Origin: Diplolepis rosae
Lineage: Eukaryota; Arthropoda; Insecta; Hymenoptera; Diplolepididae
DNA length: 64,000 nucleotides
Assembly: GCA_030998225.1 (NCBI GenBank)
Contig: JAPYXD010000713.1
Coordinates: 868,001 to 932,000 of the forward strand
Reading direction: 5' to 3'
The notes below the pieces were generated by a model. It was not told where the DNA came from and did no database searches. It was given only the letters and a program-made list of their open reading frames with translations. Positions 21,691 through 56,215 of this stretch are shown piece by piece. Every line of letters starts with the position of its first letter. Position 1 is the stretch's first letter. A program made the position numbers and the translations under genes.

Positions 21691-21693
21691 ATA

Positions 21694-22156: not shown

Positions 22157-22199
22157 TTTCCACCCCTCAATCTCTGGAGCTCCGCCCTGAATATTGGGC

Positions 22200-33865: not shown

Positions 33866-35362
33866 TCGGAGAAATTGAGAGAAGCGTCCAAAAATTTCGC
33901 TCCAAAAATTATTGCTCTGGACTGTTTATGAATAGAAAGGTTGATTTTCCTTTCTTCAGGAATATTGCTTGGATTTATTTGAAGTTTACTAATTTCAGTC
34001 AAATACAAATCAACTTTATGGAGAAATGAGGGACCTTGCCAGCACATCCTTGAAGTTAAAATCTCTTGAGCATTCATGCGTCTGGATAACAAATCAGCCA
34101 CATTATCCTGGGATTTTACATGTCGCCAAGTGTAATTACTTGTAATTTCTTGGATTTGCGAGACTCGGTGGGATACAAAAACAGACCACCTACTTGCATG
34201 ACTTTTACACCAATATGAAGCAATTTCAGAATCCGTCCATAGATTTACAGAATCAAATTCAATTTTTTTGTGAAATACGTGAATTAATTTTTTAATGAGT
34301 TTAGAAAGGAGAAGCATGGCACATAGCTCTAATCGTGGTAACGTTGCACTTTTTATTGGAGCGATTCTTGACTTTGAAGAAATGAGAGTACACGAAACTG
34401 TATTATTAGAGTATACAGTTCTAAAGAAGACACAGTCCCCATATGCTAGTAAACTTGCGTCTGCAAATCCATGGATTTCTATTTTCCTAATGCTCTTATT
34501 TAGAAAGTAAAATCTTGGAATTTGCAGCCGACTTAACAAAGGTAGATTGCTACTAAAACTCTCCCATTCCTCTAAGATAGATTCACTTTCAATTTTTGTA
34601 TCCCAGTCAAACTTGTGAGCCCAGAGTTTTTGCATTAACATTTTCCCCTTAACTGTAACAGGATTTATGAGTCCAATGGGGTCGTAACATTGCGCTAGTA
34701 TTGACAATATATTTCTTTTAGTAATAAGCATGACATTGACTTCTTTCGGAACCGAAATACAAAGATAATCGGAAATGGGATCCCATTTTAGACCTAAAAC
34801 CTTATTTGGAGATTTATCGAAGTTCATATCTACTGCATGCATTGCCCGTTCTGAGATGCTTTCGAGGAAACTTTGAGAATTTGAGCAATATTTGTGAAGG
34901 CTGAAACCGTGCCTACTTAGAAGAGTATTTAATTCATCGTGGAGCTTCCTAAGCTCTTCAATATCAGCTGCCCCGCATAGCCCGTCGTCCATATAGAATT
35001 ACGAGAGAAGTGCTTCAGATGCTAACGGAAATTCCTTTGAATTTAGAATTGCAATTTCTTTAAGAACTTTTGTTGCAAGAAATGGAGCACTATTAGTACC
35101 GTAAGTGACTGTATTAAGTAGAATACAGTTGAGGTTATCAGTAGTGCTTTTTCGCCACAAGATGTTTTGTAGAAAACTCTCGTATTACGCATAAATGAGG
35201 AATGAAATATTTATTTTTAAAATTCTTGTTATCTGGAGAGAATGGTACGACTTGTGCATGGCCTAAAGAGATATATTCATCGATAAAATTGCTATATTCT
35301 TGGAAAAGGAGTTTATCTTTTTCAAAACGTTTTTCGAGAGTTGAAAATCTTTTCTTAGCCAT
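33793..35362 (-). pseudogene. BEL/Pao reverse transcriptase and RNase H
   Basis: The N-terminal RT segment (35362-35138, with YISLGHAQVVPF and KYFIPHLCV) is separated by breaks from the main 399-residue frame. That frame begins at the catalytic YMDDGLCGA, with an in-frame TAA two codons upstream. Further on are LGLKWDP (RT thumb-side motif), RRNILS..CYDPIGLINPVTVKGK-type sequence, and an RNase H-like domain (GFADASLLAYGDCVF, LWTDSEIASYWCK, VADLLSRRM). Typical Pao-family arrangement, inactive here. Confidence 0.9.
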
Positions 35363-35596
35363 AGAGAAAGAATCACCTAATTTTTGATATTCAGAAGGCG
35401 TCTTGAGAGGGATATTTACTTGAAATCGAACATTATCGAGAATTTCTGTCGTAGATTTAAATATTGTGTCTACTAATTCATCTCCTTTTGATTGAATTAT
35501 TGGTTCCGAAAGTTCCTCGATATTCCAGAATTTGGTCAGTAAATTATCTAATTGATGATCCGATTGAAAGGTAGTGATTAGAGAGATGTTTTGATT

Positions 35597-36230
35597 TCAC
35601 GTTTTTTGAATTGCACATGTATTTGCAACCGCGTAGATTTGAGGAATTTTTCCTGCCACTATCCAACCTAAATGGGTATCTTGCAAAACTGGACGATTTT
35701 TTCCGAGGCTTACTATGTTCGGTTTTATTAAATCATAATAAATATCTGAAACGAGTAATATGTCAATTTGTGATGGGATGAAAAATTCATTATCAGCAAG
35801 TTGTATAGTTTGCGGAAGTTGGAGATCATTGACAAGGATACTAGCTTGTGGAAGCTTACAAGTTATTTTTGGCAAAATTGCACAAGAAATATTGAATTTT
35901 TTGTACTTATCTAGATTCGAATGTATAGAGACATTAACCATTTTGTTAGAAGTAGTACTGTTTTCGCTAATACCTGAAATATTCAAAGTGAGATCATAGG
36001 GTGAACACTGTAATTCATCAGTCAGTCTTTTTGTAATAAAGGAGTTTTGGCTTCCACTATCTAGAAGTGCTTTGACTGTGACTGGTTCCCCTTGTTTTGA
36101 AAATAACGTTAATTTGGCTGTAGCCAAGAGAATGTAAGAATTTCTAATTGAAATTGCTGAATTATTCAGCGAAGTTTGAGCTGAGTTGCTAGAAATTACA
36201 GAGCAGTCATTTTGAAAAAAAAATAGAAAT
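35597..36230 (-). pseudogene. BEL/Pao aspartic protease region
   Basis: The frame carries VKALLDSGSQNSFITKRLTDEL, which holds the retroviral protease DSG active site, and continues through IDILLVSDIYYDLI and HLGWIVAGKI as in Pao polyproteins. Its first residues come from the LTR tip, showing the 5' deletion. Confidence 0.85.
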
Positions 36231-36429
36231 TCCAATAACAAGTTTCCAAGGCAGTTTATAAGTTTAACATCTAATATATTTCAACAACTTTATAAGCTTA
36301 TAGAATATATGCATGGAAAATTTAACAAGAATATCCTATAAACAATATTTTATAATCAAGTTAAATCTAGGGGGTAAATAAAACTTTAATGATATTGATT
36401 AAATTTCTTCTAAAGAAAAAATTAATGAG

Positions 36430-36649: not shown

Positions 36650-37212
36650 ATCCACGATATGGGAGCACTGAGTCTCGACTAATACTTTCTCTCAGTGTGT
36701 AAAAAAAATTTGAAGCATGAAATGAGGTCGGCCGGATTATAATTATATATACATATATTCATATATCTATATATATTCTTGCAATTCATACATATTTAAT
36801 AAATTATTTTAAAATAATTATAATTATAATCCAAGTCACTTCTATACCCTCATTACTTTATTTTACAAATTCTTTTCCTCAACTATAAATTTAATGAAGT
36901 TTGGTAAAAATTTAAAAATGGAAATAAGTGAATAAATTCTTTTGACAATAATTTTTATCAACTTGAAGTGTCAGGGAAATTAAATAAAAAAATAAAAAAA
37001 GTGATTAAAAAATAAAAGTATCAAATTTCATACGATGTTACTACATTTTTGTATTTGCAAGTATAATTATGATTTATAAATAACAATTCTTATATTTGTG
37101 TAGAAATGGTAGTGTCACCCTCCATATTAATATAATAAAAGATGTTGGTTTGCGATCAATGAGGGTCAAATATAAAGAAGAAAACTCTTTATAGTGTCAA
37201 AATTGTTGCGAC

Positions 37213-37246
37213 GTTCCGTTGGCTATGGGTTTGCCAACCTCATCAG
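37213..37246 (-). ncRNA. Hammerhead ribozyme-like core, mutated
   Basis: On the minus strand CTGATGAG, a stem GTTGGC/GCCAAC, then GGAAC instead of the consensus GAAAC. PLEs are known to carry hammerhead motifs. The changed core base should abolish cleavage in this copy. Confidence 0.6.
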
Positions 37247-37682
37247 GCTTTATTAAATTAAAAAAAAAAACACCAAATATTAAAATTGGCACACACAAGA
37301 AAAATAAAAATAAAATTAACTTAACATATAGAACATACACAAAATTTTTAAAATTTTACCTTTATAAAAGAAGGTTAACTCATGATGAGTAATGTCGAGA
37401 AAATAAAATTATAATAAAAGTCATGATTTAATTAATAAAATGACGTGATGTCATGGAGTCGACGACACTTTGTCTACTAAATTATTACATTCAAACAGTT
37501 AACTTTAAATATTGACAACAGTTATTGTAAACACAGAATTTGAAATGAAAACAGACATCAGCTGGAAAGCTATCATGAATTTAATCTATTAAGTAATGAA
37601 AAATAAATTCTATTCAAAGTAAATATGTCTTCTTTTTTATTTATACTGAATTTATTAAATTTTATATGGATCATCTCTGATG

Positions 37683-39117: not shown

Positions 39118-40773
39118 TGACTCGAAATCAAGCAAGGAAACAAAATGTGAAAATATATAACCAGCCAACATATAAAGATTTTTCAGACTCAAATGAAGAA
39201 AAAGACGAAGATAGCGACGACGAACCTCCTGAAAGAAAAGAAAAACGAAAATATAGCATCTAAAGACTTAGAAAATCGACCTCCGCCAGAACCACCCCCC
39301 GCTGAAAAAGACCTGCCGGCTATAAAATTAACGACAAACCGCAATATAATCGAATGTCGAGATCAACTTACAATGCGTAAGGACAATTATGCTTATTTTA
39401 TTTCAACCAAAAACGAACCACGAGATAATGGTTCTAAAATTTTACTAAAACGTAACGAGTTACCCCAATTTAAAAACCTTTGCGTAGGTCATGCACAAGA
39501 ATTTCGTAGAGGATTACAGTACCATTTAGCATTACCAATAGAATCTGAATTAAAAGAAAATTTAAGTGATACATTAAAGAATATTAAATTATCAATTTAT
39601 TCACTCCATTCAAAAGCAAAAAGCCTTAAATTACGCACAATTGGTATCGCAAAAACACCTGAAATTAATAATATTCTATGGGAAGAGATTTTAAGTGCCA
39701 TAAAATTAGCTTTTTCTGACTCACCAATAAAAATCATAATATGTAATGGAATCACACAATATGCAACTAAAGAACAACAATCTCAATTAATCGAAGAAGC
39801 TCACTCATCGGCCTTAGGTGGACATAAAGGAGTTACTAAAACTTTCAATAGAATACGTCAAAATTATTATTGGCAAAATATGAAACTAGATATTCAAAAA
39901 TATATTCAAACTTGTTTAAAATGTCAATTAAAGAAACTTGTACGCGTAAAAACAAAAGAACCTATGATAATTACTGATACTCCTGGAACTGCCTTCGAAA
40001 AAGTTTCTATGGACATTGTAGGTCCATTGCCTGTGACACAAAAATTAAATGAGTATATATTAACAATTCAAGATAACTTCACTAAGTATTCATTAGCAAT
40101 ACCACTTCCTAATTCTCTCGCAAGTACTATAGCAGATGCTCTTGTAAAGAAATTTATATGTATTTTTGGATCACCTAGAGCAGTTCTTACTGATCAAGGA
40201 AAAAATTTCTTAAGTAATCTTATCCGAAGATTAGCCGAAATATTTAGAATTCGTCAATTCAAAACAACAGCTTTTCATCCACAATCAAATGGATCTTTGG
40301 AAAGATCTAATCATGTACTTGCTGAATATTTAAAACGATTTGTTAGTAAAAATTCTGAATGGGATGACTGGATAGAACTAGCTACATTTTCCTACAACAC
40401 AACCATTCATGAAGGAACTCGTTGCAGTCCATACTAATTAGTTTTTGGTAAATTAGCCAGACAACCTTCAAGCGAACCCCTTCCAGAACATGAAAAACTA
40501 GAAACATATGATGATTACTTGATTAAATTAGTAACCCGACTCCATGAAATAAGAGCAATTGCTAGAGATAATCTTATTGCAGCAAAAGAAAAATCAAAAA
40601 AGTACTACGATAGAAATATAAGCCCACAAAATTTCAACGTTGATGAAGAAGTATTTTTACTAAGTGGTCCGAAACCTAAAAAACTCGAAAATCAATATTC
40701 TGGTCCTTATAAAATTTTAGAAGTTTTAGGAAAGGCAATGTTAAAATTCAAATTAAAAATAAGCCAAAAGTAG
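39118..40773 (+). pseudogene. Ty3/mdg4 integrase of element B
   Basis: A charged linker (residues rich in Glu/Asp/Lys) leads to the zinc-binding HHCC domain (EEAHSSALGGHKG ... CLKCQ). The DDE core follows: SMDIVGPLP (Asp), LTDQGKNFLS (Asp), FHPQSNGSLERSNH (Glu). An in-frame TAA at 40435 follows GTRCSPY. The C-terminal part then continues in the same frame (REI..KKYYDRN, EEVFLLSGP, YSGPYKILEVLG, the GPY-like module). The charged linker starts in a different frame from the main ORF, so there is also a shift near 39260. Confidence 0.85.
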
Positions 40774-40851
40774 TACATATTAATCGACTAAAACGTGCTC
40801 GACTAAATAAAGCAGACTAAATTGGAAACTACTTTCAGATATCGTTCCTCA

Positions 40852-41132
40852 ATGGATCCCATCCATCGAAAAAGAATAGATAAATATTGCGATCTTCTTG
40901 TCAACAACATAGATATAGTAACAATTTGGCCTTTCCTAATAAGAAATAAAATCTTCAACCGAGATGATCATAATATTCCACTATTGCTTTATGATATAAC
41001 AAATCCATCAACTACAGAAGACATAATACTCGCAAAAAAACTCGTGGTCCACTTGCATACCACAATTTTATACTAAGTTTACGACAATCTGGACAGGGAT
41101 TATTAGCAGAAATTTTGGATCTCATTGAATAA
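40852..41132 (+). pseudogene. CARD-like protein (element B)
   Basis: The ATG at 40852 lies 13 bases after an acceptor (AACTACTTTCAG, AG at 40837-40838). The N-terminal part reads HRKRIDKYCDLL and IVTIWPFLIRNKIFNRDDHN, parallel to element A (17793-18074). A run of seven A at 41034-41040 carries a one-base shift; the C-terminal RGP-type helix block is readable in the next frame and ends at a TAA at 41130-41132. The length without the shift would match the 93 residues of A. Confidence 0.65.
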
Positions 41133-41250
41133 GTATTGAAAAAGTATTTATTATACCCAATACAAATAAGAATAACAAATCAGTGAACAAATAAATTTTA
41201 TTTCTGACAATGAATAAAAATTTGTTAACTAGAAAAATCCTTTTCTAGAC

Positions 41251-43225
41251 ATGGGGTCTGGAAAGAAAAAACTGACAACCTTAGTCATGCTCATATTAAT
41301 GACAACAACTGTAGAAGCAATCATCGGATACGACTGTGGATCCAATCAACTTAATTTAACAACACTGTCTCTTCTTGAGGTAGGAGAATGTGATATACCT
41401 GAACTTGAATTACACATAGAAACAACCTACATTCAACTTTTACAAATAAGTGATTTTACACTCACCCAAGTAAGACAATGCAAGATCGAAATTAGACGTA
41501 CTATATCTTACTGTGGAATGCATTCACATATTTCAGCAGTAACTAATGGACAAAGTGAATATATACATGAAATTTCGCACCAACAATGTGATACACTACA
41601 CTCATCAGGTACAATATCCTTGGGCCAAAACCTACAAATCTCAAATTTAAGAATTAATCAAACATCTTATCACAGCGTACTACTAGCCGGATCTTTGGCT
41701 ATGAATGGAGATTGCTCTGGAAATCAATATTCAGATCCTTTTGAAACGTGGAATAACGTAATCGTTCAAGGCGTATTAAAAATCACACTTCAAGAATACT
41801 ATGCTAACGTGAATTTAAATACAGATAAAATACACTTACGATCAGGAATAACATGTTCACTTTCAGAATCACATTGTGTCGACATGGAAGGAGGACAAAC
41901 TTTTTGGAATCCTCTACCTGATGACATTTGTAATTTTAATAAATATGAAATATTATATGAAGGTTACGCAAATAAAACTCAGGATAATAAAACACAAAGC
42001 CCAAACATATTATATTCACTTACAACTCAAGACATAACTTTCGTTTGAACACAAAAAGCAAAAAATCCAGTCTGTAATCTTTTAATGATTAGAACTGAGC
42101 ATCCAAAATTATTAATACTTGAAATCACTTGTCCAAAATAATTTATTTACATACATAAATTCAAAATTTGTATATATTGAACGACACATTCGTAATGAAG
42201 TGAACAAACTATATCATGATGTTTTAACTCAAAAATGTAAATTAGAGCAACAAGTTTTTAAAAATACCTTAATTTTAGCTACTCAAGCTCCTGATGAATT
42301 TGCTTATCATTTAATGAAAGGTCCAGGTTACATGTCAATAATTGCAGGAGAAGTTGTGCATATAATTAAATGCATCCCAATTAAGGTTAAATATCGCAAA
42401 ACAGAAGAATGTTATCTACACCTACCAATCTATAGAGGAAATCAGACTTCTTTTATTACACCAAGAACTCACATCTTAACTAACAAAGGCACTCAAACAA
42501 GTTGTAACTCTTTTGTTCCAATTATGTATTTTTTGGGAATTGCTTGGTATAAATTAATTCCAAATCCAATCGAATCTTTACCCCCAGAAATAATGAAACC
42601 TTTGACAAAACCCACATGGCGATATAAAAATCCGGCTCATCTTGCAACAAGCGGAATATATTCTCAATCGGATTTAAACAAACTGCGCGATCACATAATG
42701 TTTCCCGCGGAAAAACCGATGGTTCTCAACACATTAGCTCGCGGAATTATGGGTCAATCCACTTTAAATCAAGGAATCTCGTTAATGAATCTTTTAGATG
42801 AGGAAACTATTGAAAGAATTGCTCACTCAACTTGGACAAAAATATGGACAGTATTCTCGAATTTCGGCACAGTTAGCGCAGGATTTATAGGAGTAATCAT
42901 TATCATAAGAGGCATTAAAATAATAATTGACACCATAATTCACGGTTATGCACTTTACACTGTTTTTGGCCGGTCATTTCACTTAATAGGAGTTATTTGG
43001 GACTCCGTAACTAACCTTCTATTACATTTAGGAAGAGAAAACCAAAGGACACAGGACCAACAACAAGAACCACTTGATACGAATCCTTCAGCACCCGATA
43101 TATCTACACATTTACTTGAAGAAAACATTAAAACAGGTAAACAAAAGAAAAACGAAACACCCAGCCTATATCCACACAGTGAACTAACAGAACTATCTAA
43201 TATACCTCAAACTTTTCACTTTTAA
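41251..43225 (+). pseudogene. Chuvirus-type glycoprotein (element B)
   Basis: The ATG at 41251 is two bases after a strong acceptor (CCTTTTCTAG, AG at 41247-41248). A signal peptide (KKKLTTLVMLILMTTTVEA) precedes IIGYDCGSN. The ectodomain has many Cys and N-glycosylation sites. A TGA at 42046-42048 and a frame change near 42120 split it; the remaining 368 residues are open. They include KLRDHIMFPAEKP, a hydrophobic segment (GVIIIIRGIKIIIDTIIHG), WDSVTNLLLHL and a hydrophilic tail. The family is the fusion glycoprotein of chuviruses, known to have been captured by insect retroelements. Not functional as it stands. Confidence 0.85.
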
Positions 43226-43236
43226 AAGTAATCAGC

Positions 43237-43929
43237 ATGAACTACTCTTATAAATTAAAAAAGGATAAGAAAAATGAATTATTTTTTGAAATCACTGCAG
43301 AGTATAAAAAACAAAAAGTAACTGGGCTGGGATATGATCCTGAACTAACAAAGCAGCATGTTACAGAAACATTATTGAAAATTATACCGGAAATAGAAGC
43401 CCAAGTCTCCAATTCCTATCAATCCTTCCAGTTAAATTCCTTTAAAGAATTACAAAATACTTGTAAAAAATTCCGAATCTCAAAACCACAAATGTTAACT
43501 TTCCGTATCAAATACTCAAATACATCCTCAACCTATATGAGCATTTGTACAACTGATCAAATGAAAGAAAGTGGAATTGGTAGCACACCAAAACAAGCAA
43601 AAGACCAGGCAGCTTGTAAACTCATTCATTCTATACTTAAGAAAATAGAAACAGAAAAAGCTAGTAATCTTCAAAATGACTTTCAAAATTTAACTGTAAA
43701 TTTAGAATCCAATTCTTTAAAAACCAATCCACTTTCACAATCAAACAAAAATGGACGTTCTAATATAAAACAAATAAATAATCTGCCCTTCAAAAAAAGA
43801 ATTAGACATAACTTACCAATCCACCCAATTCCTCAACCTTCAACCTCATACAACCAATCACCTACAAATTCCTATAAAAAGTGTATGAAATGTGGATTTA
43901 GACCATCAAATCCTTATTACAATTGTTAG
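43237..43929 (+). CDS. Double dsRNA-binding-motif protein (element B)
   Basis: 230 residues, intact. The ATG follows an acceptor-like AAAGTAATCAG by one base. Residues about 1-55 look like a dsRNA-binding motif lacking its first helix (FFEITAEYKKQKVTGLGYD). Residues about 85-140 are a second motif with ESGIGSTPKQAKDQAACKLI, the G-S-(x)-K-x-AK-x-x-AA RNA-contacting helix. A 60-residue basic, Ser/Asn-rich tail ends in KCMKCGFRPSNPYYNC, a possible small zinc site not present in A. Likely an RNA-binding counter-defence or packaging factor; inference. Confidence 0.7.
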   Translation: MNYSYKLKKDKKNELFFEITAEYKKQKVTGLGYDPELTKQHVTETLLKIIPEIEAQVSNSYQSFQLNSFKELQNTCKKFRISKPQMLTFRIKYSNTSSTYMSICTTDQMKESGIGSTPKQAKDQAACKLIHSILKKIETEKASNLQNDFQNLTVNLESNSLKTNPLSQSNKNGRSNIKQINNLPFKKRIRHNLPIHPIPQPSTSYNQSPTNSYKKCMKCGFRPSNPYYNC

Positions 43930-44054
43930 ACGATAAGCATGAATCTCTTACGCACGCAACTCTTATTTTAGTTTTAATTTTTAATAGCATGGTATATGTG
44001 TGTAATTATGACTACTAATCTAATTCTTTACTTTTGTTTAGTTAATCTCTCTGC

Positions 44055-45922
44055 ATGCTGTCACCAATAAAAATGATGGTAAAAAGACCCTTTTATTCTA
44101 GGAACTCGAGAAGCGACATGTTGAGGATTTGTACTCTCATCATAATCATCAAAGTAAATCCTACAAAATCTTATGAAGCTGACAATTTCATTATAACTTC
44201 TATCTCAAACGCTTCTAGTATTTATTTCGAGCCATTAGACAATATAACTTTTACCTCTGGCAGCTGGCATCTTCTTTCTTATATCAATATATTAAGCTTT
44301 TTGAATTTTGGATACGAAATACTTGACACTTTCAAAGAATTGACTGTCCATTTCAAAATAACTGCATTCTCAACGAAATAACAGCACAAATAATAATTAA
44401 AGAAAGAAAAATAAAATCAGTTTTAAACAAAATTTCTTTAATTCTAGAAAATACTGTCGACATCACATTGAAAGATGATTTTCAAAATTTTAAAACAGCA
44501 CTTATCAAGATGCAAAAGTCGGATAATTCTACCTTTGACTGGTACGAAAAACAGATTTATATTTTTCCTTCTATTCTAACAGATACTTGTAAAAAAATCA
44601 TCCATGCCCAAAACACAATTGCTAGATTTAAAAACTGGCATCTAAAGTTTCCAAATTCAACAAATTCCTTGTGCGAAATGTTCGAAGTATCATGGATAAC
44701 TAACATCAAAGACGCTACACACCATTATATTCTCAGTATACAACATCTATCAACTAATTTAGCTTTTGCAATTAATGGTAATTGGCATCCTACTCTACTG
44801 TCTTTAATCCCTTTCAATTCAATCAAGAATCTAGCATCCATAAGTTCTCCATACCAAACTGCAGACGACCTCACTCTTTCTGAACTTCTAATATTTGCTA
44901 AAGTCCAACTTTTCTTTTATGAGAAAAAATTAGTTATCTCACTCTCTCTTCCATTTATATCAGAAAAGAAATATCAAATATTCCAACCCTATTCAATCCC
45001 TATTTATCACACATTTAATTCAGACTTGACTACATACATTTTTATCAAATCTAAAATTTCCTATTTGGCACTTTCAAATGACAAACAAACTTATTTTACC
45101 TTCGACGATTATCTCTATGATACCTGTCATTCAACACAAATTGGAAAAATTTGTACTTTCACTCCCCCTGAATGGAGCACATTAAACAACCAAATTTGTG
45201 AAACAGCACTCCTTACAGAAAATAAACTGTACCAGTACCAATTCTATCTAAAAATAACTAATAACATCCAATGGACTCCACTTAAATTTTATCAAGGATG
45301 GTTATACTCCACTCCTTTTCCTACAAAAATTCGAATCCATTGTCCACAAAAAATTTCCACTCAGATTACTGTCAATAACGCTGGTATTTTACAAACACAA
45401 TCCGATTGCATCATTGAAGCATATAATTTAGTCTTGCCACAGATTAACACAAAATCAAAATCTCTTCTAGAAATTACCCCCACTACAGGCCATTCAACTT
45501 CACTATATAAAATTGCCCCTAATCTTTACAACTTATCATTAAACTCAAATTCACTACTCAAAAATTTATTCAGTTCTTGGAATAATAATGAAATTATTTC
45601 ACTATCTACCCTTGAACAACAATTATTTACATTTCTTCAGTTTCAAAAGTCTTATAATAAAAGAACAGAAATCAGCAAGGACTTTGAAACATTATCTTTT
45701 TACATTTTTATAGTAACAATTGTATTCATTATTATCTCACTTCTCTTCATGCTATTCGGATTGTGCCTATACATAAAAATCCATAAAAACGCGATAAATT
45801 TAAAAACTCTGGAACCCCCAGTAACTCACCAAGATTTGAACCTTCTGGAAAACGAACCAATCCAACTTGAACAGCTCAAAACTTTACACTCACAACCTAA
45901 ATTTCTAAACACTTTAGTGTAA
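44055..45922 (+). pseudogene. F-type envelope glycoprotein (element B)
   Basis: The ATG at 44055 follows an acceptor (TACTTTTGTTTAG, AG at 44040-44041). An N-terminal hydrophobic stretch (ICTLIIIIKVNPTKS) may be the signal. A stop near 44380 and a frame change by 44468 break it; the following 484 residues are open. The ectodomain pattern with YQIFQPYSIPIYH, CTFTPPEW, KFYQGWLYSTPFP and a late Cys pair, then a membrane segment (FIVTIVFIIISLLFMLFGLCLY) and cytoplasmic tail, fits the baculovirus-F/errantivirus env family. It is unrelated to the glycoprotein upstream, so the element carries two envelope genes. Confidence 0.8.
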
Positions 45923-46073
45923 TCATCCGTTCGTTTTTCACTTATATACAAATATTTTCACTTAAAACACAGTCACTAACTGTCACATTCACTTTTTCCT
46001 TCGTCTTCTTCTTCCCCTCATGGTAAAAACTATAAACAAATAATAAAAATTCAAAAACAAATTCATAAATGAA

Positions 46074-47099
46074 TCAATTTCTATTTTCAATCATATTTAC
46101 CTGTTCAAGTACAGAATTTACGACTCTAAATCGCATTCTGTCAACCTTAACTATCACTTCCATTCCACCTTCGTCCAATTGTTTTTTACCCTCAGCTGCT
46201 CTACGGTAACGCCAAGAACGGTCAAAACCAGCCCACAGCCAAGGCAATTGAACACGCATACCATTGTTCAAAACCAAAAATTTAGGCGACAATAAAACTC
46301 GTTTGTCATCATTGTCATACCTAACGCGATCACTATCAACCTGCAATAAACAATTCAAATATATTCTTTCATCTATTGTTATAAAAAAAATTAATAAAAA
46401 TATATATATAAAAATGCTTACCAGCACAAGAAGACGCTCTTCATTAAAATGACAAAACCTTTCACTTATTTTAAATACACCAGACGGTTGCGAATGGTAT
46501 TCAGAAATTACTTGAGCTCTTAACATTTCCTGTTGTGCCAAAGGAAAATCAGCCCACCATCCGGGACCATGATGGTTTACACCTTCAACAATCCTTATTT
46601 TAAAAATGTTGAAATGTGTCACTTCCTTCCATATATCATGAGACCATTGTCTCAACTCATATCGAGGCATTTGATTCACATCCTCAAATGAATCGCGTAT
46701 ATTCTCAGTCTGAACAACAGAGTCTTCAATTGGAGAAACAATTTCATTATCCTCAGCATTTCTATTTTCACTAATAGATTCATCAACATCCATATGCACA
46801 GCACTTACACTTTCTTCAACACTTTTCTCTTGTCCTTCATTCAGATTAAAAAGTATTGACTCATCAAGAGTCTCACCGTTTTTTTCCGACTCCCCAAAGA
46901 ATGTTCGATCTAAATCAGCCCAAAAGTCACTATCTACACACACTTCACTATTTTCCCCGCTTTCGCAAAACCTCAAACTACACTCTGGAACCTCAAAATC
47001 AATCAAAGAATCAAAATTAAAATCATCCGCCGATAAAAACTCATTTCCGAAAAATTCCGAAAACTCATTTGCAACATTTTCCTTCTGAAACGACTCCAT
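46074..47099 (-). CDS. Antisense intron-containing gene with acidic N-terminus
   Basis: Open from the ATG at 47099 to 46074. An 81-base AT-rich interval (46421-46341) begins GTAAGC and ends TTTATTGCAG on the minus strand and divides by three, so it reads either as an in-phase intron or as a hydrophobic insert; splice signals favour an intron. The spliced product would be about 314 residues. Another possible donor (CAG/GTAAAT) lies just before the stop. The first about 150 residues are acidic with Phe/Asp clusters (FNFDSLIDFEVPE), like a transcription activation domain. The rest has many Trp (GPGWWADFP, LPWLWAGFDRSWRYRRA). No family recognised. It lies tail-to-tail with the F-type envelope; element A has nothing comparable. 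Confidence 0.6.
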   Translation of the reverse strand: MESFQKENVANEFSEFFGNEFLSADDFNFDSLIDFEVPECSLRFCESGENSEVCVDSDFWADLDRTFFGESEKNGETLDESILFNLNEGQEKSVEESVSAVHMDVDESISENRNAEDNEIVSPIEDSVVQTENIRDSFEDVNQMPRYELRQWSHDIWKEVTHFNIFKIRIVEGVNHHGPGWWADFPLAQQEMLRAQVISEYHSQPSGVFKISERFCHFNEERLLVLVSIFIYIFLLIFFITIDERIYLNCLLQVDSDRVRYDNDDKRVLLSPKFLVLNNGMRVQLPWLWAGFDRSWRYRRAAEGKKQLDEGGMEVIVKVDRMRFRVVNSVLEQVNMIENRN

Positions 47100-47438
47100 G
47101 TTTTACTCAAAGGATCTAAACGTCGACTAACACTCTTCTCACTCTCAAAGTTAACCCTTTCGACCTTCATTTCTCCAAAAATTTTCCCTATTTTTACTTC
47201 TAATACATAAAAACACACAAACCTCTTGACTTAAACCCTTCTAAATTTTGTCAAAAAAAACGACAACCTTAGAAACTCCAATTATCACACTATGAATAAC
47301 TTTCAAAAAGAGGATGCCTCCCAACCAACGTCACAAATCCTAGAAGCAATAAAATCATAAATCAGTAAACTTTTTTCACTCAGACTAGTAACTTGCCTAT
47401 AACTAAATATTTTCTCTCTTTCTATCATTTTTAGAATC

Positions 47439-47811
47439 ATGAAACCTCCTCAAGAAATACCTGAAAACGAAAAATCTTTAGGCGGTTTTTGAAACTTATG
47501 ACATACTATTCATCACCAAATGTTTCAAAATAGACGAAAATACACCATTGATCTATGTAAAATCAACTCACTCGGCAATGCGTATTTGTGAATATTGTTA
47601 CCTCAAATTGTCAGATTATGAAAAAGAAAGCCTTGAACGTCGAAGCACTTGGCATTCAATCGGACAAATACGCCGATTTAATACAGTCTGTTTCTTTTGT
47701 AACATCAAAATAATATCCATTTGCTGTACAGCCTTTCAATGTACTCAATGCATCGATAAGTTTCTAGACAATCAGAATCTCATACAAAATGGAATTGAAA
47801 TAGAAATATAA
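47439..47811 (+). pseudogene. Cysteine-rich small protein 1 (element B)
   Basis: The ATG at 47439 is four bases after a strong acceptor (CTTTCTATCATTTTTAG, AG at 47433-47434). After about 17 residues the frame closes (GGTTTTTGA); the homologous protein continues in another frame through CEYC, STWHSI, CFFC and CTQC to a TAA at 47811. It matches 6508-6915 in element A. Paired cysteines suggest zinc binding; role unknown. Confidence 0.7.
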
Positions 47812-48174
47812 AAATTCATCTTATAACGCATGTACTATGAAAAAGATGTAAAAGAAAAGTATTAAGCATCCTTAGTATGCATGAATTTAAACTTGAATGC
47901 TCCCAAATACTTTTTCTTCTAATAGTGGCATGAATAAAAAAAAAAGAGAGAAAAAAAATGTGTATATGTATTTGGCCTATCTTTCTAGTAGAGATTCTTT
48001 TCTTTAATTACATAAAGCGAATTTTCGTTGTCATTATGACTTAAAGACATAATATTTTTCTCACAGGAAAATGCTGCTTTTGAATACACATACCCCCCAA
48101 GCCGCAAAGGAAAATACAATGATTGCATCAAGCCCAACGAAGTATTCTGATTATTTTGTTGCAGTAGCCTCGAC

Positions 48175-48528
48175 ATGAATGGCATAACACTAATGCATCA
48201 AATCACTTTGAAACCACTATGCGAACATTGTTTTCTTAAAGAAATCCCCCAGGAGGATGTCCCTTATATAGGCGACCTCCTTCGTATTTGCATACCGTTT
48301 AAAAATATCTCTCATATAAATTGCTACATCTGTGAGAAACAAATATGTTTTGTACGAAAAAGGGCCGACCTTTGCAATGAATGTATAGCTTATTTAAATG
48401 ACACAATTCAAAATGACGAAATAATATCTGATTCGGAACCTGATACAGATTCCGAATCAGATCCAGACAGCGATCACGAAGCTTTGGAATACAAGTATGA
48501 TTCCGAAGCTTCTACTATTATACTATAA
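48175..48528 (+). CDS. Cysteine-rich small protein 2 (element B)
   Basis: 117 residues, intact. The ATG follows an excellent acceptor (CTGATTATTTTGTTGCAG, AG at 48163-48164) by 10 bases. Pairs CEHC, CYIC and CNEC lie in the first 80 residues. The C-terminal 40 residues are strongly acidic (repeats of DSEPDTDSES type) and end SEASTIIL. The element A homologue (3754-6368) is split by a transposon. The layout of a zinc-binding module plus acidic tail suggests a protein-protein or regulatory role, but no family is recognised. Confidence 0.7.
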   Translation: MNGITLMHQITLKPLCEHCFLKEIPQEDVPYIGDLLRICIPFKNISHINCYICEKQICFVRKRADLCNECIAYLNDTIQNDEIISDSEPDTDSESDPDSDHEALEYKYDSEASTIIL

Positions 48529-48826
48529 AGGGATTAAAACATTAAAAAAAAATTATTAAAATACATATATTTTTTTTCCTTTGCCTTTTTAAAAAAATAT
48601 ATAAAAAAATCATGCCACCACTTTTGTTATTATAAGCATTTATTAAAAAAACATTAAGTTAACTTAGGAACAAAGCCTATACTAAAATACTCTACCTTAA
48701 ATATACGATTTAATATAAGCTTTGTTAACATGCACTGCAGCCTTATAATTTATTTGTTAAAGAAATATAGAAAATAAGCAACTTCTACTTTTTCTGCAAA
48801 TATATTTTCTATATGTTCCAGAAAGA

Positions 48827-49255
48827 ATGGAAGTACCATTTAGAACAATAAACGCTGCCACCGTCGCTAGCCCTATGCAACTAATTAACGAATTAAGCAT
48901 AGAATATGATTTTATAGGTCCAAACTACGAAATTACGTCTAAATATTTCAATAATATTCCTACATTCTTTGCTAATTGTACGGTAATTAAAGATTGTATA
49001 AACTACACATGCACTAGCGAACGATATACTAATAAAAAACAAGCCAAGCATGACGCAGCACGTAAACTATTAGAATTATTAAATAAAAACTATGTTTTTA
49101 GTGAACAAAACGGATTAGAAGCGATCCCAAAAAGTCTTGGAGGTCGTAAAATCTTATATAAATGGACTGGGGCTTGCGAAAAGTGCTATCAAACAGGTCA
49201 CTTGATTTATACATGTAAAGGACCCACGAGAAATAAAAACCTGCGACTTAATTAA
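48827..49255 (+). CDS. dsRNA-binding motif plus zinc-knuckle protein (element B)
   Basis: 142 residues, intact. The ATG follows an acceptor (TATATGTTCCAG, AG at 48820-48821) by five bases. A dsRNA-binding motif at about 15-88 begins with MQLINELSIEYDF and ends NKKQAKHDAARKLLELL (KKxAKxxAA). CEKCYQTGHLIYTC is a CX2CX4HX4C knuckle near the C-terminus. The homologue is at 2956-3399. It is the last gene before the polypurine tract in both elements. It could act in RNAi suppression or genome packaging. Confidence 0.8.
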   Translation: MEVPFRTINAATVASPMQLINELSIEYDFIGPNYEITSKYFNNIPTFFANCTVIKDCINYTCTSERYTNKKQAKHDAARKLLELLNKNYVFSEQNGLEAIPKSLGGRKILYKWTGACEKCYQTGHLIYTCKGPTRNKNLRLN

Positions 49256-49462
49256 AATATTATATATATCCATTGTTAAATATAAATTACTACCGCATAC
49301 ATATGAACTTTTCACAAATAATATTTCGATAGGAATCATATGCGAGACACCTCTTATCCTATAACAATATGTTTTCAGGAAACTAATGAACTCATTTTAA
49401 TTTTTCCTCTACCGAGGATTCGATCGTTACAGTTCTATTCTATCACCTCCACGATCGAATTT

Positions 49463-49480
49463 AGAGGGAGGGGGGGGGGG
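49463..49480 (+). other. Polypurine tract of element B
   Basis: An AGAGGGAG block followed by a run of G ends exactly where the LTR begins with TGTTACG. Confidence 0.85.
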
Positions 49481-51182
49481 TGTTACGTATCCATGACAGT
49501 TATATTATATATTATAATCATATAAAACTATTATGCTATTATATCATATAACACGTTTTATTGTTGCTATAAATATTGTTGCTAGATACATGTAATTGTT
49601 TTTATAAATAATTTCACTATTACTGTTAACTAAAATATCAATAAACAATTGATTTTATTGATAAAATACTAATTAAAACAAATATTACCTTTTATTATTA
49701 TTAACTATTATTATTACTATTGTTAATAATAACAATTAACGAAATGCAACAAATGTTATATAGCAAAAATATTACTTCAACCTTTATATTTAAAATTATT
49801 ATTAATCACTATTATTATTAATATTTAATATTGTTATTAACAATAATGGTCAAAATGCAACAAATATTAAATAATAACAATTTTACTTCAATTTCTTGAT
49901 TTCTTGATTAATTATCAATCACTTTCATTATAATTATTTCATGTTGTTACTAAAATTTGCAACATATATTATAATAATGTTACTTCAAATTTTATAATAA
50001 TAATGTTTATAATAATTATCATTATTGTTAATATTCTTATTTTGATGTTAATCAACAATCAGCAATTAATTATAAAATACGTTCTTTTAATAACTATTAC
50101 TATTATGTTATTTTATAAACAAAAGCAATGTTTAAATATAAAGATGGATAGAATTATAAACAAATCATAATCACCATTTATGTACAACAATTGTATTATA
50201 GTTACTCTATTACTTACCTATGTATACAAATAATATCATTAACCCTTGCGACTAAATTTACCTAAAAACCTGATGGTACGGGTTTACATAGCCCTTGAGA
50301 AGATGTGAGTACACCCACACCACGGACTTGGAGAATCGGTGTGAGTCCCTAAGCTCACCAACGCAGCACACCAGCAAACTAGCCCATAGTCTCAACTCAC
50401 CACACTAACACCTAAGATTCTAATGGACTTCGAAAAAGCTATTGAAACCATGGAATTCAAATTCCCATACTTTCTACCTACGAGTTGAGACTACAGACGA
50501 AAATATAAGTCGGAGTCTGAGTCTAAGCGAGTCTAAGGGAGTCTAAGGGAGCGTACGATCAAGCAGCATCGTTAGAACCGGTTTTCGTCGCCGTACCGCA
50601 ATAAATCTAAGTGGCCGTAATTTCCACGTGTTCGGGAAAACCAATATAATAATAACGGAGTGAATTTCAATAAAAATGGATTTAGTGTCATTGTAATCGA
50701 GGTATCAAAATAAGGATACCGGTTAAACAAAGGATTGACCTGCCACTGTTGGTGAACAAAGATAATTAGGGGAGGTACCCGATTAGCAGAGGATACACAG
50801 AGCTTAAAGGATTATCGCTTTCAAGAGGCCATCTCATCAATAACAACCGGTAAGTCAAATAACTTGTTTTTATTAAAGTTCTCTTTTCTTTTGAGCCCTT
50901 TAGACTCACGGTGTGTTTTTCTTTAAGGTTGGACCAATCAGACTCGACCAACCAAAGGAAAACAGCCTGCAACCAACAACTAAAAAGTCGCTTGGGTTAA
51001 AATAAAATTTGTATTTTTTTAATAAATTATTATTACCAATAATTGTAATTTGATTCATTTGGCTTGTCCTCTACCCGGTTAATTGTTAATTTTAACAATA
51101 AACAGATGAACATAGTTAGGGTAATTGACTCCAGACTTTAGGTAGGAAATGTTTATATTAATTTAAAACTTAGGACGTCACA
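49481..51182 (+). repeat. 3' LTR of element B
   Basis: 1702 bases, TGTTACGTATCC ... TTAGGACGTCACA. It is AT-rich in its first 700 bases; AATAAA-type signals lie near 51000. It abuts a PLE fragment at 51183. No matching 5' LTR is in the window. Confidence 0.75.
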
Positions 51183-51655
51183 ACTTAATAGATTAAATTC
51201 ATGATAGCTTTCCAGCTGATGTCTGTTTACATTTCAAATTCTGTGTTTACAATAACTGTTGTCAATATTTAAAGTTAACTGTTTGAATTTAATAATTTAG
51301 TAGACAAAGTGTTGTCTACTCCATGACATCACGTCATTTTATTAATTAAATCATGACTTTTATTATAATTTTATTTTCTCGAAATTACTCATCATGAGTT
51401 AACCTTCTTTTATAAAGGTAAAATTTTAACAATTTTGTGTATGTTCTGGATGTTAAGTTAATTTAATTTTTATTTTTCTTGTGTGTGACAATTTTAATAT
51501 TTGGTGTTTTTTTTTTCTTAATTTAATAATGCCTGATGAGGTTGGCAAACCCATAGCCAACGAAACGTCGCAACAATTTTGACACTATAAAGAGTTTTCT
51601 TCTTTATATTTGACCCTCATTGATCGAAAACCAGCATCTTTTATTAAATTCTTAT
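51183..51655 (+). mobile_element. PLE 3'-end fragment
   Basis: Inverted match to 37135-37605 of the PLE upstream, starting precisely at the LTR end of element B. It contains only the 3' non-coding part with a hammerhead-like core. Its other end interrupts the LTR of element C. Confidence 0.85.
51533..51566 (+). ncRNA. Hammerhead ribozyme-like core
   Basis: CTGATGAG, stem II GTTGGC/GCCAAC with loop AAACCCATA, then GAAAC: the conserved hammerhead core. A short GTC/GAC pairing follows (51568-51582), so stem III is weak, as in PLE-type hammerheads. Confidence 0.7.
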
Positions 51656-51967: not shown

Positions 51968-53726
51968 CTAAATTCTTACCCTCCTTACTTTTGGTATTTC
52001 GGTGGTTACCAAGGGTTGCAAGCTAGAATTGTACGTAACAATGTTCGTCGGCGTTGTTACCTTTGTTTTTACACAGAATATACAGAGTATTTTGGGCATA
52101 CACTTTTGTATGAATTCGAGTATTCCTAATCTGTACAGAACATAGGCTGATCCTAATCCTAGCGCTGCGTAACCTAAATAGCTTAACCAATCCATAGTTG
52201 TTTCTCTCCATGTTCTTAGTCTTCTGTCAGTGGCTATTGATTTTAACATATTTTCTGCATCGTCTAGGCTTAATTTGGCTTGTCGTAATTCACTGTTATC
52301 TATAATTTTAGGGAGACGTATTAATTTACTTTCTAAGGTTTTTAGGTCACATTGAATTCGTCATAAAATTGTCACTTTAGATTTTTCGTAAGGTACAGTG
52401 CGTCCATTCCATTATAGATTTTACAATTTGAGCCCGTCAGTAGTGAGGGTTGTTTAATCTTTAGGTGTTCTATTCCTGTTTCGCAGCTAATATCTAAATC
52501 TACCTCGTTCATTGGTACTATTATGTATCCGTTTAGTACGGGTATGAAGGTTTCTTTGCGTAAAGCAAAAGGTGAAGTTTTACATTTGTTCTCTGAGTAT
52601 CGCTTGAATATCGTAGCTTCGCATGTTTCACTGTCAGTCAGCCTAAGGTTTGGTTGGCTTCTTTCGCAAATTTTATATTCGCTTATCGTCGTACATTTAT
52701 TTATTGTTTCCTTGTCAGTAATAACATATGAGTCTCTAAATTTTATTATATAGTCATGGTCGGGAATTACTGCAAAATATAGGTTTTGGATAGGATAAGG
52801 AATAGGTATAATGTGTTTGATGGTACCCTCTTCCTGTTCTATAATGGGAAATTTGAGTATATAGGTGAATAGTCATTTCAGGATGGCAACTGATAGTTGA
52901 CTTATTCCGATTATATGCCGATAGCTGGTTTCGTCTGAATCAAAATGGTATCTTGTTCTGTCTTTTTCTTCAAATTCCTTAATAGTTGTTTTTAACGTAG
53001 CAGGTTTTAATATTTGAGGATGGATGATTCCATGTTTACCGTCGTTGATAGCGTTGATGGCCATGTCTATGTTTTCGCTTGTCTCGTCAATCATTATGGC
53101 TGCTATTAGCAGCTTACTGTTAACGAAGCTGTCCCTTGATACGGTGTTCAGTCCGCTACTCAGATTTCCTGCGAGCTCTCTTTCAGCATTCTGATTCCCA
53201 ATGAGCTCTTTGTGGTTTACGGATGATGAATCTAGGATAAGTTTCAGGATTTTCGTGTGATTTGTTAACACTGTTGCCAAGTTTCTATTGTCCATATATA
53301 TTTTGTCAAATTCGTTATTTATGCTATCCAAGTCCTGTTCGCTTAGTGTACCAAATAGTGTTTTGGATATATCGCCGAAAAAGTTTGCCAGTCCTCTTTT
53401 CGTACGTTTATTTTTACCGAGTAATTTCCCCAGAATCTTATTCTTATGTACTAATCTATTGTAACGATTCATTATAAGCTGTACTTCGTATTGGGGTGCA
53501 CATTTCCCGTTACATATGCTGATTCTGCTAACTCAATGGTGCTGCTTATCGCTGATATACGTTGCTGGATAGATGTGAAGTTATTTCCCACCACAAGGTC
53601 CCAAGTTTCATGGTACAAATGTACCTTGGAGATATCTTCGACAAATAAATTGCTGGTTAATGGTTGTAAGGTGTAGTTGGCTTTACAGTTGGCTATTGCC
53701 GCTATTAGAAGTACTAGGGTCCTCAT
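51968..53726 (-). pseudogene. Errantivirus-type envelope of element C
   Basis: It starts at 53726 with a signal peptide (MRTLVLLIAAIANCKA). The stop of the first frame overlaps the next at 53472. The second frame carries a furin-like KRTKRG followed by a hydrophobic fusion-peptide-like LANFFGDISKTLFGTL and a long helical region. The part 52872-52250 is broken. The C-terminal frame (52249-51968) has a membrane segment (LGYAALGLGSAYVLYRLGI) and tail. Same general family as the F-type envelopes of A and B, but clearly different. Confidence 0.85.
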
Positions 53727-54850
53727 CTGAAAAATAAGGCATACACTGATCTGTGTACTCTCAGTATTTTATCTTTATTCCTAATGCGTAGATTATTATT
53801 ATCTAGGTAATCTATAACTTCGTAACGACCTTTCCAGGATTGTTCTAATTTGTTTTGTTTGGTGTTGTTAAGGATTTTGACTAGGTTTCCTGACTTGTAT
53901 AAAGGATGTGTTCTCATTATTCCTTCATCTAATCTTTTCTTAGTGTTTTCTAATTCCACTTGGATTCATCCTCTAGCTTTTCTGATGTTTTCCTCGTATT
54001 TTTTCCTCCATTTCCTTATCAGATTTTGATGGGTTAAATTGGGTGAGTTCTCAATCTCAGATGGTATATTTGGTACTTTTCCAAACGTGAGTTCAAAGGG
54101 TGTAAATCCCGTGGTTTGATTTACTGTTGAATTTATTGCGAATGTTACATATTTTAGATTTTCGTCCCAGTTATTCTGATTTTCTGCCATGCTAGTTTTG
54201 ATCCGATTATTCAGGGTTGAGTGCATTCTTTCAATGTTTCCGTTGGATTGTGGGTGGAAAGCTGTAGTTTTAATATGTTTGATTTTCAAAGCCTTCTCAA
54301 ATTGGTCCATTAACTCAGATAGAAAGTTAGACCCTTGATCAGTGGAAATAGTTTTAGGGTATCCATCAATGTAAATATACTGTTCTATCAGAGCTTCTAC
54401 TATTGCTGTTGAGGTTTCACTTTTTAACGGTATGAAAGTGGTGTATCTGGTCAATCTATCCTGAATACTAAGTATGTATTTGTTACCTCTAAGTGTAGTA
54501 GGTAATGGTCCAAAAATATCCAGTGCTATTTCATCATTTGAATTGAGTGGTATGTCGGGTATTATACTTTCTGATTGATTCTTAATTCGCGTGGTCTTTT
54601 GTAGTTGGCATATAGGGCATTTGTTGACATAGTCCTTAATGTCTTGGTCCATGTTGGTCCAAATTCCGATTCTCTTGGCTTTCTCGATAGTATTTTGTTC
54701 TCCAGTGTGATCCCTATGAGCTTCTTTAATAATTTTTTTTCGTTCTTCCTTAGTTAATTCTCGGGTTGTAGAGAAACAAATGTGGAAATTCTTATCTGGA
54801 TAATAGTTTGATAGGAATTCCATTATTTCTTGAATAACTTCTCGCTCCAA
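53723..54850 (-). pseudogene. Integrase of element C
   Basis: HHCC zinc domain (EAHRDHTGEQN ... CPICQLQK). DDE core with ALDIFGPLP (Asp), STDQGSNFLSE (Asp) and FHPQSNGNIERMH (Glu). A stop near 53963 separates the C-terminal module (WKGRYEVIDYLDNNNLRIRN). The family inserts the element into chromosomal DNA. Confidence 0.9.
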
Positions 54851-55662
54851 TAATGTAAATAGAGGATCTTCAAAGGATAATCTATGATTGAAAGTTTTCT
54901 GTTAACGAATTCTTCGATAAACCAACTTAATTTATACAGCCAATCTTCTTCGTTGTACATAGGCATTTCATCCTTAGTTACTTCTTTCCAAAGTTTGCCG
55001 ATAGCGTTAGGCTTTGTTTTAATTTTGCCTTTGACTGGTTGCAGTTTCCAATTTATAAAATCCGTATATAAATTAGTATCGTCTCCTGGTGTTTCCGTGA
55101 TTCCTTCTTCCGTTTCTGTGGTTTCATTTTCTGATAGTTCTCTCATTCGCCTTGCGGTTAATTTAATTTTTTCTTTTAATATTTCGTCTTTTGTTATTCG
55201 CGGCTTATCGAATGTTTCTATTTTCGGTGACTGGTCTTCCAAGCTTGGTTCTTCTTCTTCAGTACTAATTCCGGGTTTTTCCATTGCTTCTTGTAATGTG
55301 TCCTTAGTAATGGGAAAAAGTCTGGATAGACAATCCGCTACTTTATTTTCTTTTCATTTTACATATTCTATTTCGTATTCGTATTCTTCCATATAAAGTC
55401 TCCATCGTAAGATTCTCGAGCTAGGGTCTTTCACATTGTGCAGCCAAACTAAAGCACGGTGGTCTGTTTGAATTTTGAATTTCTTCTCGAGAAGATATTG
55501 TCTGAGGCGTTTCATAGCCCATACAATTGCTAAAAGTTCTTTTTCGGAGGTGGTGTATTTTTCTTCGGCTTTGTTCAATGTTCTGGATATAAAAAGACAA
55601 GGGTGCCCGTCTTGGCTTAATACTGCTAAAATTTTGTCTGAGTGCCGCGTATAAATCTTCAT
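54823..55662 (-). pseudogene. RNase H and linker of pol, element C
   Basis: RNase H: FISRTLNKAEEKYTTSEKE, AIVWAMKRLRQYL, TDHRALVWLHNVKDPSS. A stop near 55354 precedes a charged linker (55284-54823, Glu/Thr-rich) leading to the integrase. The RT domain is deleted. Confidence 0.85.
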
Positions 55663-55693
55663 AGGAGTTTATTTGCATATATCTAATGGCTTT

Positions 55694-56215
55694 TTATGCC
55701 GCGTGCGTAATTTTCTTTGCTAAAATTAAATCTAGAAGAATTTCTGGTTCTTCGCATCTTATTCTAGCTCTCTTTACGGTTTTTAGAAAATCTTCTACTC
55801 CCATGTCGTCCTGACCGTTAATTGGCTTTATCGTTTCAATTGCTAACTTGGCTCCCATTTTCCGTTCTTCGTGTGATGCTGTTGGGACAGTTGTTGGGAA
55901 AAATTGTGATTGACCGTAAATATTTTCCTGTCTTGGTCTAAATGTTTCTTTTCTTTCGAATGTTTTTTCTTCGTCCGAAGAATGATCGTCTGTCGCTTCT
56001 GGTCGTTGCTGCAATTCACTATCTGTTTCTACTGTCCCTGCTCCTCCTAATTTCTTTGATAATCTTGAAATTTCATCTATTCTATTTTCGTTTTCTTTTT
56101 GAGGGCGTTGAATGAGATAGTCAGGGTTTCCATTAGGTTGAGAACCCTTATTAGTAATTCGTCAGTGGTGTAAGAGGGGGACTGGGCCCTGACGGGAGAT
56201 TGTGCTCGAGTCATG
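55694..56215 (-). pseudogene. Gag of element C
   Basis: It starts at 56215 (MTRAQSPVRAQSPSY). One break near 56080; from 56014 the frame reads KPINGQDDMGVEDFLKTVKRARIRC, typical of errantivirus Gag. Gag-like sequence continues to about 55640 in shifted frames, then joins RNase H. Confidence 0.8.

Follow-up and report, generated by a model that had tools for sequence, protein, structure and literature searches.

The genome of Diplolepis rosae carries, in the 64,000-nucleotide stretch examined here (GCA_030998225.1, contig JAPYXD010000713.1, positions 868,001 to 932,000 of the forward strand; hereafter, the window), two diverged elements, A and B, that we read as proviruses, now decayed, of a Ty3/Metaviridae lineage with envelope genes. 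With a probability of about 0.6, this lineage would have an accessory region like that of complex retroviruses, expressed from spliced mRNAs and serving entry by glycoproteins and the blunting of apoptosis and RNA interference (RNAi). The anatomy as a coherent element is near certain. The order common to A and B is a CARD-like protein, a chuvirus-type glycoprotein (GP), a protein with two double-stranded RNA (dsRNA)-binding motifs (dsRBM2), an F-type envelope (F), two CxxC-rich proteins (cys1 and cys2), a dsRBM protein with a CCHC zinc knuckle (dsRBM+CCHC), a polypurine tract, and the 3' long terminal repeat (LTR); an integrase stands ahead of this series in B only. The window is rich in transposons. 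Listing of open frames, Pfam searches, and tblastn searches of the window with pieces of B confirmed the two collinear sets. Copies were sought in one host assembly only (757.7 Mb).

Element B occupies 39151 to 51182 on the plus strand. It begins with a Ty3-type integrase (39151 to 40773) comprising an H2C2 zinc domain (Integrase_H2C2, E = 3.3e-21), an rve core (6.1e-11), and an SH3-like C-terminus (SH3_Tf2-1, 6.2e-4, below the Pfam cut-off). The same strand then encodes the CARD-like protein (40852 to 41131; 45% identical to that of A), GP, a Monjiviricetes fusion glycoprotein (41251 to 43225; PF24664, 2.5e-93 and 2.1e-137), dsRBM2 (43237 to 43929; dsrm, 0.013), and F (44055 to 45922; 96% identical to the database protein P0121). 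A minus-strand gene with an intron (46074 to 47099; tblastn to B-type loci) separates these from cys1 (47482 to 47811; 27% identical to that of A, start uncertain), its paralogue cys2 (48175 to 48528; tblastn and shared CxxC motifs), and dsRBM+CCHC (48827 to 49255; zf-CCHC_3, 7.3e-4, and dsrm, 8.3e-4, both below cut-off). B retains, by its sequence, the polypurine tract (49463 to 49480) and a 1.7-kb 3' LTR (49481 to 51182) running TGTTACGT...ACGTCACA. It is not intact: the frame is broken in CARD (near 41043), GP (between 42045 and 42116), and F (near 44330 to 44380), a stop interrupts the integrase (40435 to 40437), and no gag, reverse transcriptase, or RNase H of B was found in the window.

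Element A runs on the minus strand from 27351 to 712 and is a single integration, with paired LTRs and the target duplication ATAA at 708 to 711 and 27352 to 27355. The 5' LTR (27082 to 27351) is internally deleted and the 3' LTR (712 to 2649) carries an insertion of >1 kb; 166 of 172 comparable bases (126/131 plus 40/41) are identical, and this divergence (6/172 bases) was measured for A alone. Gag remnants with a CCHC-like motif at the end (24720 to 26390) were assigned by eye, with no Pfam family over cut-off, and a pol remnant (20614 to 21507) includes RNase H (RT_RNaseH, 7.6e-16; RT_RNaseH_2, 3.3e-20); tblastn and Pfam found neither reverse transcriptase nor integrase of A in the window. 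The CARD-like frame is open (17793 to 18074; Pfam CARD, 0.0062, below cut-off). It is followed by GP, broken in several places (15704 to 17673; PF24664, 1e-101, 3.5e-23, and 1.4e-50 on three pieces), dsRBM2 (15190 to 15687; dsrm, 2.9e-10, two stretches), and, between 15203 and 7370, two F remnants (15203 to 14973 and 7969 to 7370; 36% and 30% to B by tblastn) that are separated by insertions and lack the N-terminal part. Beyond these are cys1 (6508 to 6915; tblastn) with one internal stop, cys2 (3754 to 6368), which is present and broken by ~2 kb of inserted repeats (tblastn pieces near 6094 to 6168 and 3772 to 3816), an open dsRBM+CCHC (2956 to 3399; dsrm, 7.6e-6; 41% to B), and the polypurine tract (2650 to 2659; from the sequence). 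A is therefore not intact in GP, F, cys1, and cys2.

The preliminary description of this DNA had given both elements the same gene order, and collinear tblastn partners, including those in the split cys2, bear this out. Amino acid identities by tblastn were 45% for CARD-like, 58 to 62% for GP, 30% for dsRBM2, 36% and 30% for the two F remnants, 27% for cys1, and 38% for dsRBM+CCHC. It placed the series downstream of Ty3-type pol; integrase was found in B and RNase H in A, never both in one of these copies, so no pol domain is common to the two inside the window. The divergence of sequences and LTRs that it reported was also found: the proportion of synonymous differences (pS) was 0.63 to 0.78 across the ten in-frame pieces compared, with the nonsynonymous proportion (pN) below pS in each, and the LTRs differ. 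A recent segmental duplication, which would account for one gene order occurring twice within 64 kb and which the preliminary description had named as fatal to its reading, is rejected as having next to no probability, given these pS values, the differing LTRs, and the close relatives that each element has elsewhere.

Such relatives were numerous in the host genome. The genome-wide match lists are top-scoring subsets: the best 68 of 2,274 candidates for GP, the best 150 of 1,598 for dsRBM+CCHC, and 71 of 2,186 for F, which gave 76 matches. All 68 scored GP copies were over cut-off, and 62 had no stop inside the match. Before neighbors were counted, split pieces were removed from the lists (3 from the 150 dsRBM matches and 12 from the 76 F matches), and each copy was scored only to its first downstream match. 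Among the matches listed and within 12 kb, a GP copy was followed on its own strand by F in 17 of 68 cases and by dsRBM+CCHC in 15 of 68, dsRBM+CCHC lay downstream of F for 28 of 64, and none of these neighbors was counted upstream or on the opposite strand; the chance expectation is ~0.001 per copy.

Ten loci of 8.9 to 9.9 kb, picked for clustered cassette matches, were fetched. They fall into three diverged lineages, A (including L026, L027, and L028), B (L019 and L021, with L020 in a sublineage, B2), and D. The order integrase, CARD, GP, dsRBM2, F, cys1, and dsRBM+CCHC was present on one strand in all ten, and a cys2 match was present in six and absent from the four D-type loci. The LTR-start motif TGTCACGT was found 108 to 432 bp past the last stop in 10/10 loci. 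It was directly preceded by a clean purine run in five (L019, L020, L021, L027, and L028), by a purine-rich stretch with internal pyrimidines in the four D types, and by a degenerate stretch in L026. To remove the selection of loci, we also drew 16 GP copies at random from the 45 (of 68 listed) that had no cassette matches nearby. In all 16, dsRBM2 came next (30 to 100% local amino acid identity to lineage A), with L029 retaining remnant ends only. Relatives lacking these genes, the other finding that would have spoken against the earlier claim, were sought from the GP side only, and the 25 copies whose sequences were read (9 chosen for nearby cassette matches plus the 16 random ones, of the 68 listed) all had dsRBM2 next, counting the L029 remnant. 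Two of the copies, L034 and L041, probably represent two more lineages: their dsRBM2 genes share 37% identity with the A type and the D type, respectively.

These loci bear on whether unrelated viral gene insertions, such as a chuvirus endogenous viral element (EVE) and others, came to lie near LTR elements by chance. A 2023 survey (Dezordi et al. 2023; PMC10084718) saw Gypsy sequences, mostly fragmentary, beside glycoprotein EVEs of Hymenoptera and, in the portion of the paper available, no clear capture by Gypsy, which would fit such a history. Order and strand are nevertheless repeated at many loci, A is enclosed by an LTR pair with a target duplication, and TGTCACGT follows the last gene in 10/10 loci. 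We reject chance clustering on these grounds and regard it as vanishingly improbable. GP itself lies inside the LTR-bounded A and between integrase and TGTCACGT at 10/10 loci, which is not the setting of a nonretroviral EVE.

Among A, B, and D representatives, identity was highest in the integrase C-terminus (64 to 69%) and GP (64 to 66%), intermediate in CARD (46 to 49%) and dsRBM+CCHC (41 to 45%), and lowest in F (29 to 31%), cys1 (28 to 30%), and dsRBM2 (23 to 32%); the A-B values were 67, 65, 48, 41, 31, 28, and 32%, respectively. Most of the genes compared show purifying selection. Between L019 (B) and L020 (B2), the dN/dS ratio was 0.06 for CARD, 0.08 for GP, 0.09 for dsRBM2 (part), 0.18 for cys1, 0.22 for F, and 0.49 for exon 1 of the antisense gene, and cys2 was saturated. 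Measurable values for D versus A were 0.08 to 0.41, with pS near saturation, and the F genes of the near-identical L019 and L021 gave 0.8 from very few changes. L026 is 99.6% identical to L027 over 9.9 kb and 99.7% identical to L028 over 9.6 kb, on other contigs. The claim that selection kept the order in an active lineage is supported by the conserved order, the purifying selection, and the near-identical copies. The set of seven genes proved less fixed than described: its order is kept, but a dsRBM gene is added in A and D types and an antisense gene with splicing in B types, whereas no cys2 was detected in D types.

L019 is 98 to 99% identical to L021 up to ~8000, 55 to 87% over cys2 and dsRBM+CCHC, and 95 to 99% beyond. 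Its region from ~8000 to 9340 is a mosaic into which a diverged cys2-to-dsRBM+CCHC stretch has been swapped, as template switching would give. This mosaic, the several coexisting lineages, and the 62 of 68 scored GP copies without a stop in the match would also fit a cassette that belongs to a repeatedly endogenizing exogenous virus and not to an element that owes most of its spread to copying in the germline. We consider this doubtful. No relative was found in the IMG/VR viral contigs, and such a history is compatible with the provirus reading, as errantiviruses may do both. Prokaryote genome contigs gave no relative either.

Both envelope genes could be assigned to families. In GP copies elsewhere in the genome, the match to PF24664 covers positions 3 to 649 of 653, which identifies a class III (Monjiviricetes) glycoprotein. 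In a tree of 120 listed sequences of 240 database matches plus A and B, the two window copies fell in one 10-tip clade (support, 0.994). Its other eight tips are unnamed ENA proteins; the A subclade of five had a support of 0.999 and the B group of five 0.354. The nearest named GP among the 120 listed was from the parasitoid wasp Venturia canescens (support for the wider group, 0.898). For F, Baculo_F gave 0.19 in the window copy of A and no match in that of B, and the two database relatives found among the best 7,996 candidates scored (P0121 and P0122) also had no match over cut-off. The lineage A copy in L026, which is 29% identical to the B-lineage F, reached 6.1e-23, over cut-off. We assign F to the F-type envelopes because of this match, the homologous F in B, and a Cys spacing of P0121 and P0122 that is common to the envelope of an element we call C. 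An AlphaFold model of F (pLDDT, 33) was discarded, and a comparison of the F profile with the element C envelope gave a probability of 1%; in their place we relied on the spacing of the Cys residues and on the Pfam match in L026. The 78 database relatives of dsRBM+CCHC, all of ENA origin, comprised 59 that are A-like, 18 that are B-like, and 1 that was left unassigned. One F match and one dsRBM+CCHC match, each on a contig 10,250 long, are probably from the same contig.

The small proteins resemble components of host defense. Pfam CARD gave E values of 0.0062 (A), 0.018, and 5.3e-4 (L019), all below cut-off (17.0, 15.5, and 20.4 bits versus 23.9), and we name the protein only CARD-like because the cut-off was not reached. 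Relatives in L019 and L021 are 94 to 95% identical to the B protein and have open 93-amino-acid frames. A profile of five CARD-like proteins had ten PDB matches with E values of ≤10, and all ten were caspase CARDs (Dronc, caspase-9, and CED-3), with Dronc the best (E = 0.012). For the A protein, fold matches came from a low-confidence model. The dsrm cut-off of 23 bits was exceeded by dsRBM2 of A (41), L026 (42.4), and L023 (34.2) and by dsRBM+CCHC of A (26.9), as well as by P0138, a relative of dsRBM+CCHC; the two dsRBM proteins of B were under the Pfam cut-off. The dsRBM2 copies of lineages A and D matched with E values of 1e-10 and 3.8e-8, in two stretches each, and the dsRBM2 profile best matched RDE-4 (0.0041) and R2D2 (0.015) in PDB. 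Three CxxC motifs are common to the cys1 and cys2 proteins compared.

In the same provirus lineage, these proteins might instead serve replication, with the dsRBM/CCHC proteins chaperoning RNA or helping to package it, the CARD-like protein building particles or filaments, and the CxxC proteins regulating transcription. One dsRBM protein does have a gag-like zinc knuckle, and among the matches are Staufen and RNA helicase A, whose primary role is not defense. Against this, the ten CARD profile matches are all caspases, and dsRBM2, F, and the CxxC proteins diverge faster than integrase, as genes in conflict with the host often do. We hold a replication role to be unlikely; counter-defense is, by resemblance of sequence and fold, the moderately probable main role of the small proteins. 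The weak evidence for a CARD fold weighs slightly against the provirus reading given at the outset, in which apoptosis would be blunted.

Two genes had been missed in the preliminary description. A and D copies have an extra dsRBM open reading frame (ORF) between dsRBM2 and F (L026, 4210 to 4866; L027; L028; L023, 4218 to 4535), with dsrm values of 8e-4 (A) and 0.066 (D), both below cut-off, and a CCHC-like motif in the A type by eye. It is missing from A in the window, and no ORF of 80 amino acids lies between dsRBM2 and F in L019 to L021. The other is the antisense gene of B, between F and cys1, which tblastn placed at the same position in L021 (93% identity), L019 (96 to 97%), and L020 (40 to 61%), i.e., in the three B-type loci only, among the ten. 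GTAAG donors are present in L019 and L020, and L020 has a 71-nucleotide intron ending in TTGCAG. We rejected a chance insertion, as place and intron are kept in B and B2. The protein has no Pfam match and an N-terminal part that is acidic by eye; it is possibly a captured host gene. Its position recalls that of the antisense genes of human T-cell leukemia virus (HTLV).

Sites resembling splice acceptors were enriched ahead of the cassette genes. A YAG occurred within 30 nucleotides upstream of all 12 usable window starts, versus 49% of 356 control ATGs; B cys1 and A F had no usable start. Three of the 12 (in A) had been picked by eye beside an acceptor, which leaves a stricter set of nine. Of these, eight had an acceptor-like score of at least 8 (81/355 control ATGs; P = 7e-5) and six a score of at least 9 (68/355; P = 0.003); a rank test with the first Met of B cys1 (no site) added gave a P value of 3e-4. 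In L020, L023, and L026, 17/22 starts scored at least 8 versus 90/362 controls (P = 1e-6), and two starts had no site at all. For the A-type GP, the start scored in L026 is a Met that lies farther upstream; the one homologous to the window start comes after TTTTTCCAG. No clear splice donor was seen in the leader of A.

We propose that full-length RNA would yield Gag-Pol and that spliced mRNAs, each with its own 3' splice site, would yield the other proteins. The class III (chuvirus-type) glycoprotein, the F-type glycoprotein, or both would let the virus enter other cells, those of the germline among them; this role is inferred from resemblance in sequence and fold. The CARD-like protein may block the Dark apoptosome as a decoy of Dronc, the initiator caspase, and the dsRBM proteins may dampen RNAi by binding dsRNA or Dicer partners. 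Candidate regulators are the CxxC proteins and, in B types, the antisense gene.

Other repeats surround the two elements. B is flanked by inverted repeats (37124 to 37599 and 51178 to 51655; 96% and 94% alike) that resemble, by motif, the ends of two Penelope-like elements, which we take to border B on both sides; the 5' side of B stops at one of them. Another Ty3 element adjoins B (51968 to 56161, minus strand), with an integrase 39% identical to that of B and an F-type envelope (Baculo_F, 5e-10), and no CARD, GP, or dsRBM match was found between its pol and envelope. A non-LTR element (21686 to 23531, minus strand; Exo_endo_phos_2, 1.7e-8) is nested in the pol of A. By eye, a BEL-like pol with open stretches lies at 32553 to 36280 (minus strand). 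Tandem repeats of ~142 to 166 nucleotides occupy 29952 to 30993, with long inverted flanks (27841 to 28200 and 30930 to 31289).

Errantiviruses of the gypsy/ZAM type share the LTRs, the Ty3-type integrase, and the F-type (Baculo_F) envelope; in Drosophila gypsy, env is made from spliced RNA. To our knowledge, errantiviruses carry gag, pol, and one env, whereas the cassette described here adds an unrelated class III glycoprotein and CARD-like, dsRBM, CxxC, and B-type antisense genes. Anakin, a mosquito BEL/Pao element with a captured chuvirus glycoprotein (Dezordi et al. 2020; PMC7642597), is likewise an LTR element with a chuvirus-type glycoprotein but has a BEL/Pao pol and one glycoprotein, and the available part of its description mentions no accessory cassette. 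The integrase of B, with H2C2, rve, and a Tf2-1-like SH3 (below cut-off), points to Ty3. Type III fusion glycoproteins were reported in mosquito gypsy elements (Chary et al. 2026; PMC13172572), which thus have a class III glycoprotein in common with ours; the accessible text mentions neither a second envelope nor accessory genes. Flynn and Moreau (2019; PMC6540820) described 224 Mono-Chu glycoprotein EVEs of ants that fall in clades of ant sequences alone and have no close exogenous relatives. They probably belong to the same glycoprotein family, as ant proteins are among the database GP matches, but they were described as EVEs, with no link to a Ty3 cassette in the sections at hand. These ant-only clades may be envelope genes of similar Ty3 proviruses. 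Troyka, as far as its description was available, is not related.

Complex retroviruses (HTLV and lentiviruses; PMC10186651, in part) have in common with our elements accessory genes downstream of pol, an antisense gene that is spliced and lies close to the 3' end, and multiple splicing, which is predicted for ours. They differ in gene order and proteins, our elements having a Ty3-type pol and an antisense protein without a Pfam match. The words errantivirus, gypsy, and Metaviridae are absent from that review of antisense genes in the form available. An iridovirus encodes a 91-amino-acid, antiapoptotic CARD-only protein whose CARD is said, in the excerpt available, to resemble human ICEBERG (PMC4457926). 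It is comparable in kind, but it comes from a DNA virus, and the CARD-like protein described here is nearest to caspase CARDs. Literature searches turned up no title or abstract opening that points to such a set of genes; their scope did not extend to bioRxiv or to the majority of subscription papers.

Accessory-rich complex genomes are thought of as a trait of vertebrate retroviruses. The balance of our evidence tips slightly toward Ty3/Metaviridae having evolved complex retroviruses independently. The insect lineage concerned would combine two fusion glycoproteins unrelated to each other, a mimic of the Dronc prodomain, as many as three dsRBM proteins that hold four dsRBMs, a pair of zinc-binding regulators, and an antisense gene, spliced and confined to one branch. 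Within one host genome it would be kept as a quasi-viral population that recombines and has recently been amplified. If this is true, the same solution arose in insect elements, by way of Ty3 relatives that carry two envelopes and look-alikes of host defense proteins, and it becomes testable whether insect endogenous retroviruses counter not just piRNAs but apoptosis and RNAi, too. Such proviruses may also account for the abundance of chuvirus-type glycoproteins in hymenopteran genomes, which would be their envelope genes and not scattered relics of RNA viruses.

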